DNA of 64,000 nt, taken from Capsaspora owczarzaki ATCC 30864 (taxonomy: Eukaryota; Opisthokonta; Filasterea). Every line of letters starts with the position of its first letter. The stretch's first letter is position 1. The stretch spans positions 65,626 through 129,625 of the forward strand of contig NW_011887298.1 in NCBI RefSeq assembly GCF_000151315.2, in the 5' to 3' direction. The translations under genes were made by a program, and so were the position numbers. Under the pieces are notes generated by a model. It ran no database searches, was not told where the DNA came from, and saw nothing but the letters and a program-made list of their open reading frames with translations. Positions 4,956-41,637 of this stretch are shown in pieces.

Positions 4956-5672
4956 TCAATAATCGATAAATGCATGGGCTTCAACCACTACACACTTGAA
5001 GCTCGAAGGACCGCCAGTCAAGGGCTCATTGTCGAAGGTTGTGCATCGCCCCGTGGTTCCGCTATTGAGCTCCGAGTCGAGGAAGATGGCATTGTCCGTG
5101 CCGCCGCCGCCAATGACCAGGTTTTCGTTGGTGGCGTGCAAAAAGTAGTCGTCGACCTTCATGTTGAGAGGAGCGCTGATGCCGACCCACGGGAACTTGC
5201 GAGCAGCCGGTCGCAGGGTGAAGACGAACGACTCGCCGCTTCCAAAGAAGGCGCGCGTGTTGTGGCGATCCGTCCAGGGATGCGAGGCGAACGCACCAAA
5301 GATGGCGCCCTCGGCCGTCTTGAAGACGAGAAGCGTCGGCGCTGCATCCTGACACTTGAGATAGAGGGTCTTGAGGCTGTAGCCGTCGGTCGCGGTCGTG
5401 TACAAACGCTCAAGGTTGGAAATACGGAAGCGCAACGGAATCCACGCCCAGAGCACCTGCATGTCATCGTCTGTCAGCAGCTCGTCAGAGACCAGTGCAG
5501 GCGGAGTCGAAAGCCCTCCTGGAAGTGGGCTCGGGGCCTGGATGGTCGGGCGTGGCTTGTGAGAGAACTCGCGCGCAAGGACTGCCTCTTCGCTCTCGCT
5601 GGTGGTCGATGCGCTGCGCGTGGCGCGTGCATGCACCACCTCAGTCGTGGCTGCCTGTTGCTGCTCCTTCTT

Positions 5673-5708
<36 letters not shown>

Positions 5709-7687
5709 TTGCTTTTGCACCTTGCCTTTGCTTTGCCTGTCCAGGAACTGTGCCGCTGCAGCTTCGACGTGCCTTCTCGACATGGACAAGCGAAAGCTCA
5801 TGCGGACCAGCTGGTCGACACGCTGCAAATGTTTGACCGTGTCCGTGACTGTCTTGGCCAGGCCGGCCATGGTGGCAGACTCGTAGGCGCGCGATTCAGA
5901 CGCGGCCAGAATGGCAATCGACACGCGATAGAGGATTTTCGGCCCTTCGTTGAGGTAGCAGTCAATGATGGCCGAAATCGCAGGGAAGGGCAAGAGCTCG
6001 GTAAACCAGAGAATCCACTTGTCGACCAGCATTTCAAAGCGCTCATTCTCAGAGTCAATGTGCCCAATGTAACGCGACAGATCGGGCAGGTACTTTTCGA
6101 CGAGTTGGCCAATCGTGCCTCCGACCGTCTCGACTTGCTTGTGCGAGCTGAACAGGTTTTCAAACTTTTTCGAGTTCAGCAGCATCATCACACATGCGTA
6201 TGTCTGCGCTTCGGAGGTAAAGTGCATAAACACGGCCACGAAAAGAGGCAGCATGGGGCAGTGCACGAGGTCGGGACGCGCATCGCCAATCACGCACAGA
6301 ATGCGGCGCGCAATCAGCCTGCCCGACTGGTTGAGCCAAAACCGATCGATGGTCGCGGCGCTGGCCCCAAACAGCGGTGCGTTTTGGAGCAATGCCATGT
6401 GAAACTGCAGACGCACCGAGGCCGACTCGTTCAAGGGCACAGAGTACACGTGCTGCTGCGTGCCGTGGTGCAAGTTGTGATGGCCAGCGCCCGTCTTGGT
6501 ACTTGTTGGGACGGGCTTTGAGGGTTCGCCAAACAGTCGCCAGGCGGTATTCAGGTACGCCTGCTCCACCGCCGCCAAGTCGGCGAGTGAAATGTTGAGC
6601 AACCTCGGCCAGACCCAGTGACGGTGCTCGTACGGGACGCCATGGCGGAGGATTTGCTTGGTCTTTTCCGGAGCCAGGCCAAACAGTCCGTTGTCTGCTG
6701 GCCAGACCGAGCGAGCGACCTGTGGAGGAATCAAGCGTGAAAATGACAAGTTTTGCAGGTCAGTCAAGTGCATGGTTTCATGATACCTGAAATTCCAACC
6801 ATCACGATAAACAAGCAAACAACAACAGCAACAACAAGAACAAAAAAGACCAACCTGCTCAGCGCGGAGTGCGCACGCGCCCTTCAGGTGATCCGAAAAT
6901 GCCTCTCGGTCAACCCAGGGCGAGCAAATGTCGTCAGGCAAGCGAATCTTGTCGGGCGCACCTTCCGAGAAGGACGGCAGCGACATGAGATTACCACTGC
7001 TTCGGTTTGGACGAATGGCCGCAGACCGCGACATTGCCTCTGAGCGTTTCTGCTCGCGCTGCTTGGCTGTAATCCAAAACGACCGAAGCGTGTCGCGCGC
7101 GCTCTTTGTGGAGCCGTCCTGCGCGGCGCCCATTGCCGCCAGTGCCTCGACTTCAAGAGGCGCCTGTGCTGGGTGGTGTCGGTGGAGCGGCCGTGGTTGT
7201 TGTTGCTGTTGTTGCTGATCCTGATCCTGAGCCTGATTCTGGGTGACCTCGTCCACCCGAGCCTCACGAATCAACCGCAACGACGGCTTCTGCGTCTGCG
7301 TCTGCGCTGCTGCGCCCACCGTGTTCAGTCCCGAGCCAACACTGCTGCTGCTGCTGGCTGTTGCAGACACTGGGCTGAGTGCGACGGGCGGGGCGGTGCG
7401 CGTCTCCGACCTGCTGCGCTGGCGCATCATTCCAAACTGCAGCCCAGCGCTGCTCGACCCTGCCGAGAGTGACGTCGGCAGCTCGCCGCTCGACGCCCGC
7501 GGCTTGCTCGCCATCGGGCTGCTGCTGGTGGTAGCTGTGGACGGGTCGCTGGTCCTGCCGCTGCTCGACTGCGCAGATGCGGTGGTTGGCGCTGCGGTTT
7601 CAACGACAATGACTGTCGGCGGCGACTGTGACGAGTGAGGCTGCTGCTGCTGCTGCTGCTGCTTGGTGGCTGGCAGACCTTTCGACG

Positions 7688-7724
<37 letters not shown>

Positions 7725-7979
7725 GGCTGGGTCTGACGAGGCGCTCGAGCTGCTTGACTGACTGCTGTTGTTGTTGAGCAAACTGCCCAGCGACGAGTCG
7801 ATAAAGCCAAACGCTTGCGCAAACCGAGACATTGCGCTCTGTGCCAGCGAAGGCGCAGCAGCCGCTGGAGGGGCGGCCGTGGGTGCTGAGGATGCTGGTA
7901 CGTCCGTCGCGGGCGCCTGTGGACCCGAGCCAGAGCCAGAGCCAGAGCCAGTGCTAGACAGCGGCTGTTGGTGAGACAT
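4956..7979 (-). CDS. TBC and TLDc domain protein (TBC1D24/Skywalker-like)
   Basis: Two exons, 7979-6855 and 6719-4956, give 962 residues. The N-terminal 370 residues are low-complexity (Gly/Ser, long Gln runs). A TBC fold follows, starting near HGVPYEHRHWVWPRLL (about residue 397) and running to about 640, then a Gln-rich linker, then a C-terminal TLDc domain (about 800-962) with LYTTATDGYSLKTLY, FGAFASHPW and FFGSGESFVF. TBC followed by TLDc is the architecture of TBC1D24, a membrane-trafficking protein linked to ARF6/Rab biology and oxidative-stress resistance. The catalytic R-finger and Q-finger motifs of active Rab GAPs are not evident: the usual YxQG segment reads HCPM. TBC1D24 is likewise degenerate, so a scaffold or lipid-binding role is likely. 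The 135-nt intron has no stop in frame. The final residues AHAFIDY precede TGA at 4958-4956. Confidence 0.9.
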
Positions 7980-8206
7980 TGCGATGAAAACTGCCAAGAA
8001 ACAGATCAAACAAAAAAAGATAAAAAAAAGTGGATTGAATTCAACGTTGAGAGTGCGAATCAACAACAGTCCTCACACGCTGGGCGGAATCATGGTCCTG
8101 CAAATCAAGATGGAGTGGAATGATCTAGAAGAAGCGGAAGGGGGCGGGGGATGTGCTGTAACTGCTCACAAAGACAAAAACACGAAAACACAAATCTCAA
8201 CAGCAA

Positions 8207-11532: not shown

Positions 11533-14075
11533 TCAACTTGAGTAGTCGAGAATGACAGTGTATAGCGAGTATACAAAACATCCAAACGTCACTACCATGA
11601 TGCCGATGGCGTATCCGTCGTGCGAAAAGTGCCAAGAATACGGTGTCTTTTCTGCTGCCGGGCCAAACTGAATTGCACAAGGATGTTGGAGTGAGAACGC
11701 ACAAAGCAAAAGCCATTCGAGTTCTCCAAAGGCGATCGCAAAAACAGCAGCATCTTCTTACTCTTCGGATGCACACACGCTTGGAGAAGTATTGCAACAG
11801 ACATGGCGCAAAGAAGGCCAAAACAAACCCGAACAGGCCTTCAAACTCGAGCACTAGGAGGAGGACGAAAACCAGTTAGCGCACAATGCCACAGCCCCCC
11901 CCCCCAAAAAAAAAAAAGCCGAAACAGAAACGCAACAGCTACAACAAACATCCTCACCTTTGCTCACGTCTCGGACCAACGCGGCACCGCCAATGGCCAG
12001 CAGCGCGAGACTAATGCGCAAAACATAGTTGAGCTTCTTGCGGGAAATCTTTTGCAGGAGGGATGCTGGTGCAGCGTTCGCCAGGGACTCGGCGAGGGAA
12101 ATCGCATACAGCGGGAAGGCGGCACTGACGGTGATGGTCGGGAAGAGCACAATGAGGTAGGAGACGACCTGCGCCCACACTGGGGTCGACTCACCAGTCG
12201 AGGCTTCGCCAGAGTAGGTCTTCCAGTTTAGGGTCACAACGCTTTGCACACTGTCGGAAAAGTACATGGCGCAGAGTGCCGACAGGAGAGCGTAAAACAG
12301 GAAGGTGGAGCTCAACGCGGCGCCAAAGATGCGGCGCGTCTTCATCTTATCGCGGACGAGCACAACAAAGCCAGGCGCACCTGGGTGAGCGACCTGCGCG
12401 ACAATGGCCGTCGTGAAAATCTTGCCAAATCCGCTAATCTCAAACAATCGAGACGTGTCAAAGTACGGGGCCGAAGTGCTGACGTTGGGCAGGGCGGTCG
12501 AGTAGGGCGCGTGGTCCACAGCGACGAGCACCGTAATGATCATGACAATCATGCAAAAGAAAGCGAACAGAGTCAGAGACATTTGCAGCTTGCGCTGGGC
12601 CGTGAGGTCGAGACACACAATCGGAATCATGATGGTGGCATAGAGGGCAAGGAAAAAGTAGTATGCGTGGACGCAGTACGCGTCGGCGCCCGAGGACGTG
12701 ACCGTCTGGCAGACAGTGCCGATATCAGGCTGGACGGAATGGTAGCCCGAAAGGAACGTGAGCGGAATGACCACCGAAAGCGCCGAGGCAAAGATGGAGC
12801 TGTACAGCCACATTGCGCCGCAGTTGTACAAAAAGATGGAGAGCTCGTAAAAGCGCCGGACGGGGTGGATGAAGCCGTTTGCATCGGCAAAGCGAGCCCA
12901 CCACGAGCTCGGCTCGACGTAGATGGCCAAGAACAGCCCACACAGCTCGCTGACCTCAAACTTGCGACCAGAGTAGCCGATCGTCATGCGCTCTTGCACC
13001 ATGGCGAGCTCTTCTGCCGCCTGCGCGGACGACACTGCGGAATTGGACGCGGCGAGTCTGGCAGAGTAGGATGAGCTGAACGTGCCGTGCGACGACAGGC
13101 GGTTAGTTGCCGACGACGCGGCAGGCCTGACGAGCGCAGCGTGCTCGCTGTCATTGCGATCGTTGATTGCCATTGGCTCGGCAAACCCATCGAGGGTGTC
13201 CGCGAACGCCTCCGCGCGTGCACATGCCTCGATCAGAAAGCACAGCGTGACAAAGCACAGGAAGCTGGCAATGAACAGCAGGATGATGCTCAGCACCACG
13301 CCACCGTTGTAGAATGCGAACGGCAACCCGAGAATGCCTGTTTTTTTTGTTCCAAAACACAAAACAACCCGAATGAAGTTGATTGTGAGTTTCAGGATAG
13401 TTTCAGACCTGTGGTGTGGTTGGTTGGCTTGATGCGCATTTGTGGCATGGAAGGGCATTCGCCCCTCGCAGCGACGTCCCGGTATCAAGGGTGCCGGTTT
13501 GGAGTCGTGGTTGGCTTCCGACGGGCAGTGATATTGAAACCTGGCTTGATCGAATGGACGAAAGGGGGGGGGGGTCGAGCGACGTATGGTGGGTGGAGTG
13601 TGTAGTAGAGGTGAGGAGCTGCTTACCTGCGCCAATGATCATGTTGACGGTGAATGCGTAGGCGACCATTGGACTGTAGCCTGCGAGCCAAAGTGATGAT
13701 ACATCGCCAGTGAGTGAAAGAGCGAGGACGGAGGGTGGGTTTTCGCACTGTGGACTGTGGTGGAAGACAGAGCGCCCCAATGCAATGCAAATTCAAACAG
13801 GACGCGCATGTATGCAAGTCCAGCTCAATCCATCCACCGCCGTCAACATGAATCATCATCAATCGTGCTATCGTGAGGCGAATGACAAGGAAGGAAGAGG
13901 CCAGAATGAAGAAGACGGAAGACGGAAGACGGAAGACGGAAGACGGAAGACGCTGGGCTCAAATGCAACAACAGTGGGAAAAGTACAAACCGTTGGCTCG
14001 TGCGCCAGACTTGGAAAGACCCTCGTGGCCGCCGTTGACACCGCCGTCAAGCAGCGATCGTTGCTCGTCGCTCAT
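11533..14075 (-). CDS. Amino-acid transporter of the SLC38/AVT (AAAP) family
   Basis: Five exons (14075-13991, 13680-13627, 13337-11958, 11853-11762, 11667-11533) close in phase to 581 residues. The N-terminus (MSDEQRSLLDGGVNGGHEG) is soluble and, as in this family, leads into the first helix SPMVAYAFTVNMIIGAGILG, whose N-x-I-G-x-G-I-L signature is the AAAP substrate-site helix. About eleven hydrophobic segments follow; the first two are separated from the rest by an Ala/Ser-rich hydrophilic loop of about 100 residues, longer than in typical SLC38 members. The C-terminal exon encodes a final helix (GIMVVTFGCFVYSLYTVIL). Such carriers move neutral or cationic amino acids across plasma or lysosomal/vacuolar membranes coupled to H+ or Na+. 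Substrate and membrane cannot be told from sequence. Only 158 bp separates it from the upstream CENP-P gene. Confidence 0.92.
13911..13952. repeat. Tandem 7-mer minisatellite (GAAGACG)
   Basis: Six copies of a seven-base unit stand in a row inside the first intron of the transporter gene. The intron lies between exons ending at 13991 and starting at 13680. Confidence 0.85.
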
Positions 14076-14233: not shown

Positions 14234-16015
14234 TCATGCAGGACCACAGAGAACCTCAATTACTTGCTCAACGGCCGATTGAAGCCCTCGTGCTCGGATG
14301 AGCTGCTGGAATTCGTCGGGAAGGGCGTCGAGCGAGACCTTGTCGGCTTTGGTCACTGAAGGAGCCGTGGACCAACAGGCATCATCGTGAAGAGGTACAA
14401 ATGTTAGCAACTGCAGCCTGCGAGTGCCCGACGCTCAATTGGGCGCGAGAATCACAACCAACGCGCAAGCATTCTTACACTCATCGGTCTTGCGCGCCCG
14501 TAAATGAATTGTGCATCGTACGTGCCCACTCGGAAGCACAGTCATAATCCAAATCAACGAAACAGCAAACCTGCAGAGGTAAAACAGCAAACCGGTGAGC
14601 AGTGGCAGCGACGGGCAATTCCCTAAAATCATCAAACAACGCAACGCAACATTTTACTTGAATGCTGGAAACGGCTTGATATTCAATACTGGACCACATC
14701 GAACTCCATGTGGTAGGGTGATTTGTGCTGGATAGCGCTCGTACATTGCATAAAACAAGACCTGGCGCTGCGCATTCCACTCGGCGTACTGAACAAATCC
14801 GTGGAAGAACGCCTGCAGCGACCTTTCTTTTTCGACTCTGCGATTCGTAGGAGGGAAGGGCAGTGAGAAGAGAGCATGTCTAGAGCGCCGCGATACAATG
14901 TCCTAGCACAGCGCCAATGCACCAGCTCAAAAATCACATGAACAACGTACGAATCGAGAAAATCTCGCAACTCTATACGCGCCTCCTCCGGCACATCGAC
15001 CGCCAGGTCGCTAATCACCATGTCTGGCTCGAGAACTCGGAACGTCAAGTCAAAGCTAAGATCATGGCAAGTGCCTCGCAGAGAGTATGTTCGGCACCAC
15101 TCTGGAAAAGAGGAAACGCACAGATCAGTTTGAGCGTGCAACATTCACTCAACGTCTCAACAACACCAAAAAAGCGGCCCTACTATTTGGCTCTGTGTCT
15201 GGCTCGACGACACTCGATGCTTGCTGGAACGTGATTCCCGTGAACGTCGCGAGCGCCTTCAACTGGGCATGGATGCAATGAAAAACAAAAAAAAAGCAAA
15301 GGAACAACAACCATGTCAGTGTCGGGGGAATTTTACAAATACATCGCCCCCAAACGAGCTCAACAAGCTTCGGCACCGAGTGTTGTCGTTGACAAGCTCC
15401 ATCTTGACATGCATGAGCAATGCCCCGACAGAGTGAATCCTCGAGCATTCAATTTCAATTTTGGCGCCAAAACAAACCCCCTCGCAAACTGACCTGTCCC
15501 AGTCCAAGCACTGACGCAGAGCCAGCTTCGCCGCTTCCGTCGTGGCCAGTATCTCGCCGTTGTGCTGCTGCACTGATCTCGGCAGTGAGTTCACGCTGCA
15601 GCTGGTGGTTGCTCGAGCGGAGGAGCTGCTGCCTGAAACACAAAGTGAGCGGAAGCGTTTTCGTCCAACCCCTCACTCCAAGCCCCACGCACCCCACACC
15701 ACACCACACACACACACACAATGCTTTTGCATACATGACTGCTTCGATGTTGCTCTGGCGATCGCGCTCGGCAGCGTCGTCCTGGTCGAGCAGCACTCGC
15801 TCCATTCCGGCAATCTCGCGGCGCAGCTGGGCAATCTCTGCCTCGAGCGCCGCGCGTTCGTCGGCCGCCGCGTGCGACGGAGCAGCAGCGACTGCAGTGG
15901 TGCCTGCTCTGGCCAGCTGGCGGTCGCGCGCGGCCTCGCGCTCCATCGCTGTGGTGACGTGGTCGACCTGCACTGCCGCTGCATTGACGATCGCTGCTGC
16001 GTCTGATCTCGGCAT
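14234..16015 (-). CDS. CENPP: CENP-P homologue, constitutive centromere-associated network subunit
   Basis: CENP-P pairs with CENP-O in the inner kinetochore. My model has eight exons: 16015-15735, 15628-15494, 15439-15337, 15262-15184, 15101-14951, 14837-14658, 14570-14479 and 14355-14234 (380 residues). An N-terminal coiled coil (about 45-90) precedes two RWD-like modules. Family landmarks match human CENP-P as I recall it: LKALATFTGIT (human LSFLSTLTGIN), YSLRGTCHDLSFDLTFRVLE (human HRLSGNCHMVTFQLEFQILE), SLQAFFHGFVQYAEWNAQRQ and MYERYPAQI (human FRSLHFFVEWFEYRKR and LKEKYPDAV), FAVSLIWIMTV, and a C-terminal helix ending in a leucine-rich stretch. All phases close. The 15494-15635 exon is the weak point: a second frame is also open there and gives a good coil, so residues about 94-138 may be misassigned. 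The C-terminal two thirds are secure. Confidence 0.82.
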
Positions 16016-16874: not shown

Positions 16875-18057
16875 ATGCTTACCTCTGTTCTTTTTCGTCG
16901 TCTTTTTGTGGGGTTAGGCAACGCTGTTGCAAACAACGCCATCCGCGCCGCGTCCACCTCGGCTTCAGCCTCCAAGCCAAAGGTAACTGTAAAAATCCAT
17001 CACCACCACTTTCCATTGCACATCCAGCCCAATGCAAATCAACAAAGGACTCACGACGTGATCATGTCACACCTTTTGGCAGAAAACCACCCAGCTCAAG
17101 CAGATGCTCACCTCCAACAACCTCGAGTTCCTTATGGAGGCCCACAACGGCCTCAGTGCCAAGATTGTCGAGGAAGCAGGTATGTACAACAAAACGTCAT
17201 TGGATCCCGCTGATGATGCACTACTTCCAACTCACTCCAATTCTCATTCCCCAAAAAACCCAACCATCAACAAACGAATAGGCTTCAAGGGCATCTGGGG
17301 CTCGGGCCTCTCCATCTCGGCATCGCTGGGCGTTCGCGACTCGAACGAGGCGTCGTACACTCAGGTCTTGGAGGTGCTCGAGTACATGTCGGACGCAACC
17401 ACCATCCCGATTCTGCTCGACGGTGACACTGGCTACGGCAACTTTAACAACGCCCGCCGCCTCGTCACCAAGCTCGAGCAGCGTGGCGTCGCTGGCGTCT
17501 GCATGGAGGACAAGACCTTCCCCAAGACCAACTCGCTCCTCGACGGCCGTGCCCAGCCCCTGGCCGACATTGAAGAGTTCTCGGGCAAGATCCGCGCCTG
17601 CAAGGACACCCAGAAGGACGCCGACTTTTGCGTCGTCGCCCGCGTCGAGGCTTTCATTGCCGGCTGGCCGCTTGAGGAGGCGCTGCGTCGCGCCGAGGCC
17701 TACCACAAGGCCGGCGCCGACGCCGTGCTCATCCACAGCAAAAAGAAGGACCCCTCCGACATTGAGGCCTTCATGAAGGCCTGGAACAACCGCGCTCCCG
17801 TCGTCATTGTGCCCACCAACTACTACACCACCCCGACCGACCGATTCCGCGAGCTCGGCATCTCGACCATCATCTGGGCCAACCACAACATGCGCACCGC
17901 CATCTCGTCCATGCAGGCCACCACCAAGCAGATCTTCCAGGACCAGTCCCTCAAGAACGTCGAGACCAAGATTGCCACCGTCAAGGAGGTCTTCAGGCTG
18001 CAGAACGACCAGGAGCTGACCAAGGCCGAGGACAAGTACCTGCCAAAGGAGAAGTAA
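16875..18057 (+). CDS. Phosphoenolpyruvate phosphomutase (PEP mutase)
   Basis: This enzyme rearranges phosphoenolpyruvate to phosphonopyruvate, forming the C-P bond that starts phosphonate synthesis. Exons 16875-16982, 17083-17179 and 17282-18057 close in phase to 326 residues. The body matches the mollusc enzyme closely as I remember it: [40 protein letters not shown], the Mg-binding [12 protein letters not shown], the gating loop [32 protein letters not shown], and the ending [10 protein letters not shown]. The DKxFPKTNS loop separates true PEP mutases from isocitrate or methylisocitrate lyases, which carry KKCGH there. The first exon encodes a basic, Ser/Ala-rich leader ([18 protein letters not shown]...) that resembles a mitochondrial presequence. 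The next pathway enzyme, phosphonopyruvate decarboxylase, is not in this window. Confidence 0.93.
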
Positions 18058-38965: not shown

Positions 38966-41637
38966 ATGGCGTCGTCATCGTCCCGCCGAAGCTCGAGCTC
39001 GCCACCGCGCTCCATCCCATCGACCGCCTCGACAAACAGCTTTGAGGCTGCGATGCATCGATCAAGCGACAATCTCATGCTGCCAGACGCCCGTCCTCTG
39101 GCATCGCAACCCGCCACCACAGCTCCTCCAATACACGCCCCGATGCCGCTCAGTGACTACCGCCTGGGCAGTGCGGCGCCAGACTTTATGGTCCCTTTGG
39201 CGGCACCAAGCACACATCGCGCATCCATCCGCAATAGTATTACGAATGACAGCCGGCCTGTAAGTTATATCGTCCAACCGTTGCAATGGACTTTTCTTGC
39301 TTCATTCATTTTGTGCCAACATGCCATCATCTTGCGACGNNNNNNNNNNNNNNNNNNNNNNNNNNNNNNNNNNNNNNNNNNNNNNNNNNNNNNNNNNNNN
39401 NNNNNNNNNNNNNNNNNNNNNNNNNNNNNNNNNNNNNNNCCACTTTCTTGACCTCTGACCTCCCCTTTGCCCCCACCGCAGTGAATGAACGCGACTCTGA
39501 TCACACCTTGGAACAAGAACAGGAAGCGCGCTGGATCTCACTGGGCCGGCGCATTATCGAACTTGAGCAGGACATGCGGAATCGGACTCCGCTCTCGAAA
39601 CACGCGTTTCGAGTGTTATTACTCGTGTTCGTTGCTCTCATCGTCACACTCAGCGTCTTGCTCAAGGTGCTCGTGCTGGACCGTGGTGATAGCGATCCCT
39701 GTCTCACAACCGACGTGCTGATTAGTAGCCAGGCCTCGATGGACACCTTCCTACAAAGCGGGTGCACGGTAGTCCGAAACCTCGCGCTTGTCAATCTCTC
39801 GCCTGAAGGAACAACGCCACTCGAGACGAGTGATGAATTGCATCTCCTGATGTCGCCTGATCAAGACCGAGCAGTTGACGCGGTCCCTTTGTCCCGTCTG
39901 GACTACTGGCAGTCCAAAATTGCCAACACTTCGTTTTCGGCCAACCGGCCGCCAATAGATGTCGCGGCGTTGAATTACAACGCGCCCGAGACGGACGCTA
40001 GGGCGTTTATGCTCGACGCCCCTGCATGGATGCTACTGTCCACTGCACTTGCAAACCTCCACACCATCAGCGGCGACTTTTCAGTCGTCAACTGCACCAT
40101 TCGGTCGCTTCGCATGACCGCGCTGACCAGCGTCGGCGGATCCATCACGATTCGACGCAACCCCTCTCTCGTGTCCCTGTACATGCCAGTCCTCCAGCAG
40201 GGCGCCGGCAACCTCGAGGTCGCCTACAATCCGTTTTTGCTTTACATGTACTTTCCTCAGCTGGTGCAGCTCGAAAACATGGCCATTTTGGCACAAATGT
40301 CACTACCCAAGCTTGACTTTCCCATGCTCCACAGCATCAGCGAGCTCTCAATCACATGGCAACCCTACTTGCACAACATCTCGTTCGGCCAACTCAACAC
40401 GGCCGACAATGTGAAGCTAATCATGTTGTACACGAGCGCCTTTGGGACCGAGTCTTGTGAGCTCCATTTTCCTTCCATGACGTATACCCAGTCGCTCCTC
40501 GTCAAGAACGTGTACCAGCTCGGCAAATTGGACGTGACATCTCTCGCGCAGGCCTCCTATTTGGACTTTTCCACCATCTTCATGGGCAAAACGCGCGTTC
40601 TTGTCTCATCCGACTCGGATGAAAACGTGACGCAAGTGCTTGTCGGAGATGAGCACTTTACATTCCCCAGCCTTGTGACCTCAGACTTGACCATCTCCTT
40701 CTCGAATGTGTTTGGGTGCATCGAACTGAACTTTCCGTCCTTGCTCACATGTGCACACTTTGCACTGGCGTCCAACACCTTTCTCAGCACTGTCAATATG
40801 CCCGCGCTAGTCACGGCAGACGAGTTGGACATTCGCTTCAACCCGAATCTGGTCAACGTGAGTGCCCCAATCCTCCGTCAGGTGACTTCGGCCTTCTTCC
40901 TGGTTGCAAACTGGGCCTTGAAGCGCGTTCTTTTTCCCGACCTTCAAGAGGCCACCGTGCTCGTCACTCTGTCCTATGATCTGGAGAATATTACGCTTGG
41001 CTTAACACGAGGAAGCGTTGCCATCGTCTCCAACCCGGTCCTGAAAGCCATCTCGCTCCCACGCCTGGACGCCGTTGCTATGCTGGCTATTCTGGACAAT
41101 CTGGTTCTCGAATCCATCTCGCTTCCAGTGCTCACCACAGTCGGAAGTGCGGGATATGTGGCAAACTCGCCACCACTGGGCCTGGCATGGATTATCGGTC
41201 ACGAGAACATTCTGGACAACTTCCCACCCAACAGGACCGCCTCCGACACGTATGAAATCGGGGCCCAGCTCGTCTCTGGCCTCCTCGCCATGTGGGCCAA
41301 CCCGCAACTCACAAACTTTTCCGCACCCCTCGCAAACTACGCCGTCAATGTTTTCGTCCAAAACAACCCGTCGCTTTGCTTCGACATGGATACTCTGCCC
41401 AGCCTACAAACGCTACAGGTGTCGTGTCTCCATGGCAATCGCCAGGGCTGTCTTGGGGCTGCAATCAACAACACCCTCAGCTCATGCAACACTCCTCCTG
41501 CTCCAAGCAGCTCCATCTCGTCCCGCATGGTTGGCAGCCAGCCCATTGCTTCGGCACCCTATAGCGCTGGTTCTGCCAGCATGCTCGGCGGCAACTCGCC
41601 TGTACGATGGAGGCGGCAAGGACTTCGTGGTGTTTGA
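38966..41637 (+). CDS. Type II membrane protein with receptor L-domain-like ectodomain (crosses an assembly gap)
   Basis: The first exon (38966-39259) encodes 98 Ser/Pro-rich cytosolic residues and ends at CCT|GTAAGT. A run of 100 N follows. The main exon starts at or before 39482 and runs to TGA at 41637. It opens with a charged helix (EQEARWISLGRRIIELEQDM) and one membrane segment (FRVLLLVFVALIVTLSVLLK), then about 650 extracellular residues with several N-glycosylation sequons. That region repeats a pattern of short hydrophobic strands, such as LTSVGGSITIRRNPSLVSLY, NMPALVTADELDIRFNPNL and LPVLTTVGSAGYVAN. This resembles the right-handed helix of receptor L domains (EGFR/insulin receptor type; also fungal Ecm33/Sps2) rather than LRRs. 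It ends in a Cys- and Ser-rich tail. The phases at the gap do not meet, so an exon or exon start is hidden there. Ligand and role are unknown. Confidence 0.75.
39340..39439. other. Assembly gap (100 N)
   Basis: Exactly 100 unknown bases, the usual placeholder for a gap of unknown size. It falls in an intron or exon of the L-domain gene; any translation across it is meaningless. Confidence 0.99.

Follow-up and report, generated by a model that had tools for sequence, protein, structure and literature searches.

A seven-exon gene of Capsaspora owczarzaki predicted to encode an orthologue of the inner kinetochore subunit CENP-P

Results

The minus strand of positions 14234-16015 of the window (the whole 64-kb stretch of DNA that was analysed; G+C content 53.7%) carries a split gene whose product is, as judged from sequence comparison, almost certainly an orthologue of CENP-P (Ctf19 in yeast), a subunit of the inner kinetochore (CCAN). 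The assignment follows from homology to the CENP-P family model, from the single place that this model matches in the genome, and from the occurrence of CENP-O and of CENP-H, -I, -K, -L, and -N in the same genome. We conclude that the Capsaspora CENP-P is a real and ordinary orthologue. A fast-evolving kinetochore family thus gains a protist member.

Gene model

To assemble the gene, all three frames of the minus strand were read, and the coding segments were joined at consensus splice sites. A 347-residue protein encoded by seven exons was obtained; the preliminary description, which gave no exon list, had put the length at 380 residues. All six introns are of the GT-AG type, range from 82 to 231 bases in length, and keep the frame throughout, and no stop codon is found inside the model.

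Exon 1 (15735-16015) begins with an ATG at 16015 and ends at the donor gtatgc. It encodes an N-terminus rich in alanine, glutamate, and arginine, which lies beyond the Pfam match and, judged by eye, is probably a coiled coil. Exon 2 occupies positions 15494-15632. Exon 3 (15184-15262), which contains the LKALATFTGIT stretch, falls within the alignment with human CENP-P. In the spliced protein, the match to Pfam CENP-P starts in exon 4 (14951-15101; contains RGTCHDLSFDLTFRVLE), at residue 172. Exon 5 (14658-14837) encodes FFHGFVQYAEW and MYERYP, and matches CENP-P without any splicing. It is followed by exon 6 (14479-14570; FAVSLIWIMTVLPSGHVRCTIHLRARKTDE) and by exon 7 (14234-14355), which encodes the C-terminal leucine-rich helix GLQSAVEQVIEVLCGPA and the stop codon, and is likewise covered by the human CENP-P alignment, up to human residue 284. 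The segments named in the preliminary description (LATFTGIT, the exon 4 segment, YAEW with MYERYP, and the C-terminal helix) are therefore all present, and in the order that it gave.

The exons were evaluated with a codon usage model trained on 15 long open frames (10,163 codons) from the window and from fetched loci; a single CENP-I gene contributed three of these frames through its overlapping loci L008-L010, and is therefore counted repeatedly. Codon usage backs exons 1, 2, and 3 (0.43, 0.31, and 0.27 bits per codon, respectively) and, weakly, exon 4 (0.16 bits per codon). For exons 5, 6, and 7 the values are near zero (0.06, -0.10, and 0.04 bits per codon, respectively), so that it is homology that supports these three exons. 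Within exon 2, the frame of the model is favoured at positions 15625-15566, which supports the first half of the exon; thereafter, over approximately the last 30 codons, two frames score equally, and the 3' half of the exon and its donor are therefore uncertain. An alternative 3' end, noticed by eye, would carry exon 2 on in the second of these frames as far as a gtaaaa donor near 15329, and would likewise join exon 3 in frame; codon usage does not choose between this end and that of the model.

Similarity to the CENP-P family

When the spliced protein was compared with Pfam, a match to CENP-P (PF13096) with an E-value of 3.2e-17 was obtained (63.3 bits against a curated cut-off of 25 bits; positions 3-177 of the 177-position profile), CENP-P being the only family listed up to an E-value of 1. 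Splice sites were picked knowing the human CENP-P sequence, and this and other E-values of the spliced protein are somewhat favoured by that choice, while E-values of unspliced frames are unaffected. The preliminary description had spoken of a CENP-P-like inner kinetochore subunit in a unicellular eukaryote; this was right, and the firmer wording of a CENP-P orthologue is justified. Its remark that homology of this kind is hard to detect does not apply here, since an ordinary Pfam scan finds the spliced protein.

An unspliced six-frame search of the 27,456,641-base genome with the CENP-P model revealed one place at an E-value of 0.001 or less, which corresponds to exon 5 (E 1.1e-4; 25.9 bits, barely over the cut-off of 25). 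Searched as one open frame, exon 5 matched CENP-P with an E-value of 1.5e-6 (28.5 bits). Five further unspliced frames of the window were tested, including that of exon 4, and gave no CENP-P match. Since the spliced protein scores higher than exon 5 alone, the other exons contribute to the signal; a match of that extent along the profile is beyond any one exon. None of the 14 control genomes matched the CENP-P model, a weak control, as those named are all bacteria or archaea.

A search of PDB chains, with matches listed up to an E-value of 10, returned four distinct sequences. Two of them are human CENP-P (E 1.5e-14 and 1.6e-14; chains 28op_P and 7pb8_P, with 7r5s, 7qoo, and others), and the remaining two are unrelated (E 0.11 and 2). 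In the best alignment, residues 140-345 of the model (206 residues) are matched to residues 66-284 of the 288 residues of human CENP-P, with 27% identity in the pairwise alignment. Conserved blocks follow each other in the same order in the two proteins, and the C-terminal helix is common to both. The Capsaspora protein is 59 residues longer than its human counterpart, has a longer, alanine-rich N-terminus that does not align significantly, and differs by two shorter loops, one before and one after the RGTCH block. CENP-P and Ctf19 proteins diverge fast, and sequence searches usually miss the link between them. No yeast Ctf19 chain was listed among PDB matches up to an E-value of 10, either with phmmer or with a two-sequence profile.

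Two other explanations of these matches were considered. RWD domains recur across several kinetochore proteins, as outlined in PMC9252888, and a different protein with such domains, for example CENP-O, KNL1, or an RWD protein that does not belong to the kinetochore, could merely resemble CENP-P. However, no Pfam family besides CENP-P was listed up to an E-value of 1, the only significant PDB matches are the two CENP-P sequences, and the CENP-O match in this genome lies elsewhere, at a locus of its own on a different contig; we regard a different RWD protein as very improbable.

The locus could also be a decayed CENP-P pseudogene; in favour of this view, codon usage is weak in exons 5-7, and exon 2 has a 3' half that is plausible in two frames. 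Decay is at odds with a 347-residue model that is free of stop codons and has GT-AG borders at six of six introns, and with similarity that runs on to the C-terminus; moreover, the genome search listed no second copy. The chance that the gene is a pseudogene appears very slight, and an orthologue of CENP-P remains the preferred reading.

CENP-O and other inner kinetochore subunits

The genome was searched for 10 kinetochore families, including CENP-P. Seven were over their family cut-offs, one was just under, and two were not found. CENP-O was over the cut-off without splicing (E 1.6e-7), at a locus on contig C1; one of the 14 control genomes also matched the CENP-O model, under the cut-off. 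A partial spliced CENP-O model matched the Pfam family with an E-value of 2e-15, and its best PDB match was human CENP-O (E 0.0033). Also over their cut-offs, with no match in any of the 14 control genomes, were CENP-I (E 3.6e-36), CENP-H (E 3.6e-35), CENP-L (E 7.9e-30), CENP-K (E 2.9e-11), and CENP-N (E 5.6e-10; one TGA, perhaps in an intron, lies within the match). The CENP-H locus (L016) and CENP-P are on a common contig (C7), approximately 0.87 Mb apart. CENP-C was just under the cut-off (27.6 versus 29 bits; E 7.8e-5), and its model matches eight of the 14 controls, also under the cut-off. The genome thus retains much of the canonical inner kinetochore.

In the same exon-by-exon search, which can miss divergent coiled coils, the best matches to CENP-Q (E 0.205) and CENP-U (E 0.036) were under the cut-off. 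The CENP-Q match is, by eye, a generic coiled coil, and the CENP-Q model also matches five of the 14 controls, all prokaryotes, under the cut-off. The CENP-U match belongs to a frame of 219 residues in which a lysine-rich stretch was noted by eye. Both matches look spurious and were rejected. Of the three subunits that the preliminary description had proposed to look for, CENP-O was found and CENP-Q and CENP-U were not, which hints weakly that the latter two are absent from the genome.

Proposed role

In yeast, Ctf19, the CENP-P counterpart, has a double RWD domain, through which it pairs with the double RWD domain of Mcm21, the counterpart of CENP-O; Okp1/CENP-Q contacts the RWD-C surface of Ctf19 and helices of Mcm21 (as summarised in PMC5709738). 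In human cells, the P/O/R/Q/U subcomplex is loaded onto kinetochores in S phase, largely via CENP-L and CENP-K, according to the account given in PMC3445539. Both of these human docking partners are encoded in the Capsaspora genome.

By analogy with the yeast and human proteins, the Capsaspora CENP-P would have an N-terminal coiled coil followed by two RWD domains, and would pair with CENP-O. The CENP-O/P pair may then dock on the rest of the CCAN, for which yeast uses Okp1/CENP-Q, and, once docked, would be expected to strengthen the link between chromosome and spindle in mitosis. A more specific scheme, in which CENP-Q and CENP-U were lost or replaced in a lineage that keeps CENP-O/P together with CENP-H, -I, -K, -L, and -N, so that CENP-O/P docks by a route unlike that of yeast, is in our opinion unlikely.

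Age of the CENP-O/P branch

The preliminary description had also held that a CENP-P in this organism would place the CENP-O/P branch before animals. In this respect the gene adds nothing: Ctf19 and Mcm21 of yeast are already regarded as CENP-P and CENP-O, as stated in the summary given by PMC5709738, and CENP-O/P must for this reason be at least as old as the common ancestor of animals and fungi. The dating of the branch is thus unchanged.

One survey followed 70 kinetochore proteins across 90 eukaryotes and detected the CCAN in three of the five supergroups; it considers the CCAN likely to be ancestral, with three of the O/P/Q/R/U subunits probably later in origin, and its main text makes no mention of Capsaspora (PMC5579357). 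A later survey, of the relatives of animals, includes Capsaspora and describes Sphaeroforma as devoid of many CCAN parts (PMC11153136). Because animals and yeasts have CENP-P, and because the survey of 90 eukaryotes infers an older CCAN, a CENP-P in Capsaspora is expected, and a kinetochore specialist would anticipate the find. It is probably catalogued already, as the later survey covers kinetochore proteins in a set that includes the species (PMC11153136). Our own literature search returned nothing that joins CENP-P, CENP-O, and Capsaspora, a result that does not imply absence from print.

Neighbouring genes

The neighbour on the opposite strand (17062-18054, plus strand) reads away from CENP-P and encodes a PEP mutase domain (E 8.8e-61). 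On the minus strand, the open frame at positions 11857-13638 encodes an amino acid transporter domain (Aa_trans, E 7.5e-10); read in the same direction as CENP-P, this frame is probably the gene that follows it downstream. Elsewhere in the window, an open frame of 795 residues (39250-41634, plus strand) had no Pfam match at an E-value of 1e-5, and positions 4959-8072 of the minus strand encode a protein with TBC (Rab-GAP) and TLDc domains (E 3.6e-14 and 2e-36, respectively). Runt-domain genes are unusual outside animals; a search of the genome with the Runx family revealed two Runt-domain loci (L005 and L006), with E-values of 2.4e-46 and 2.2e-29, respectively.
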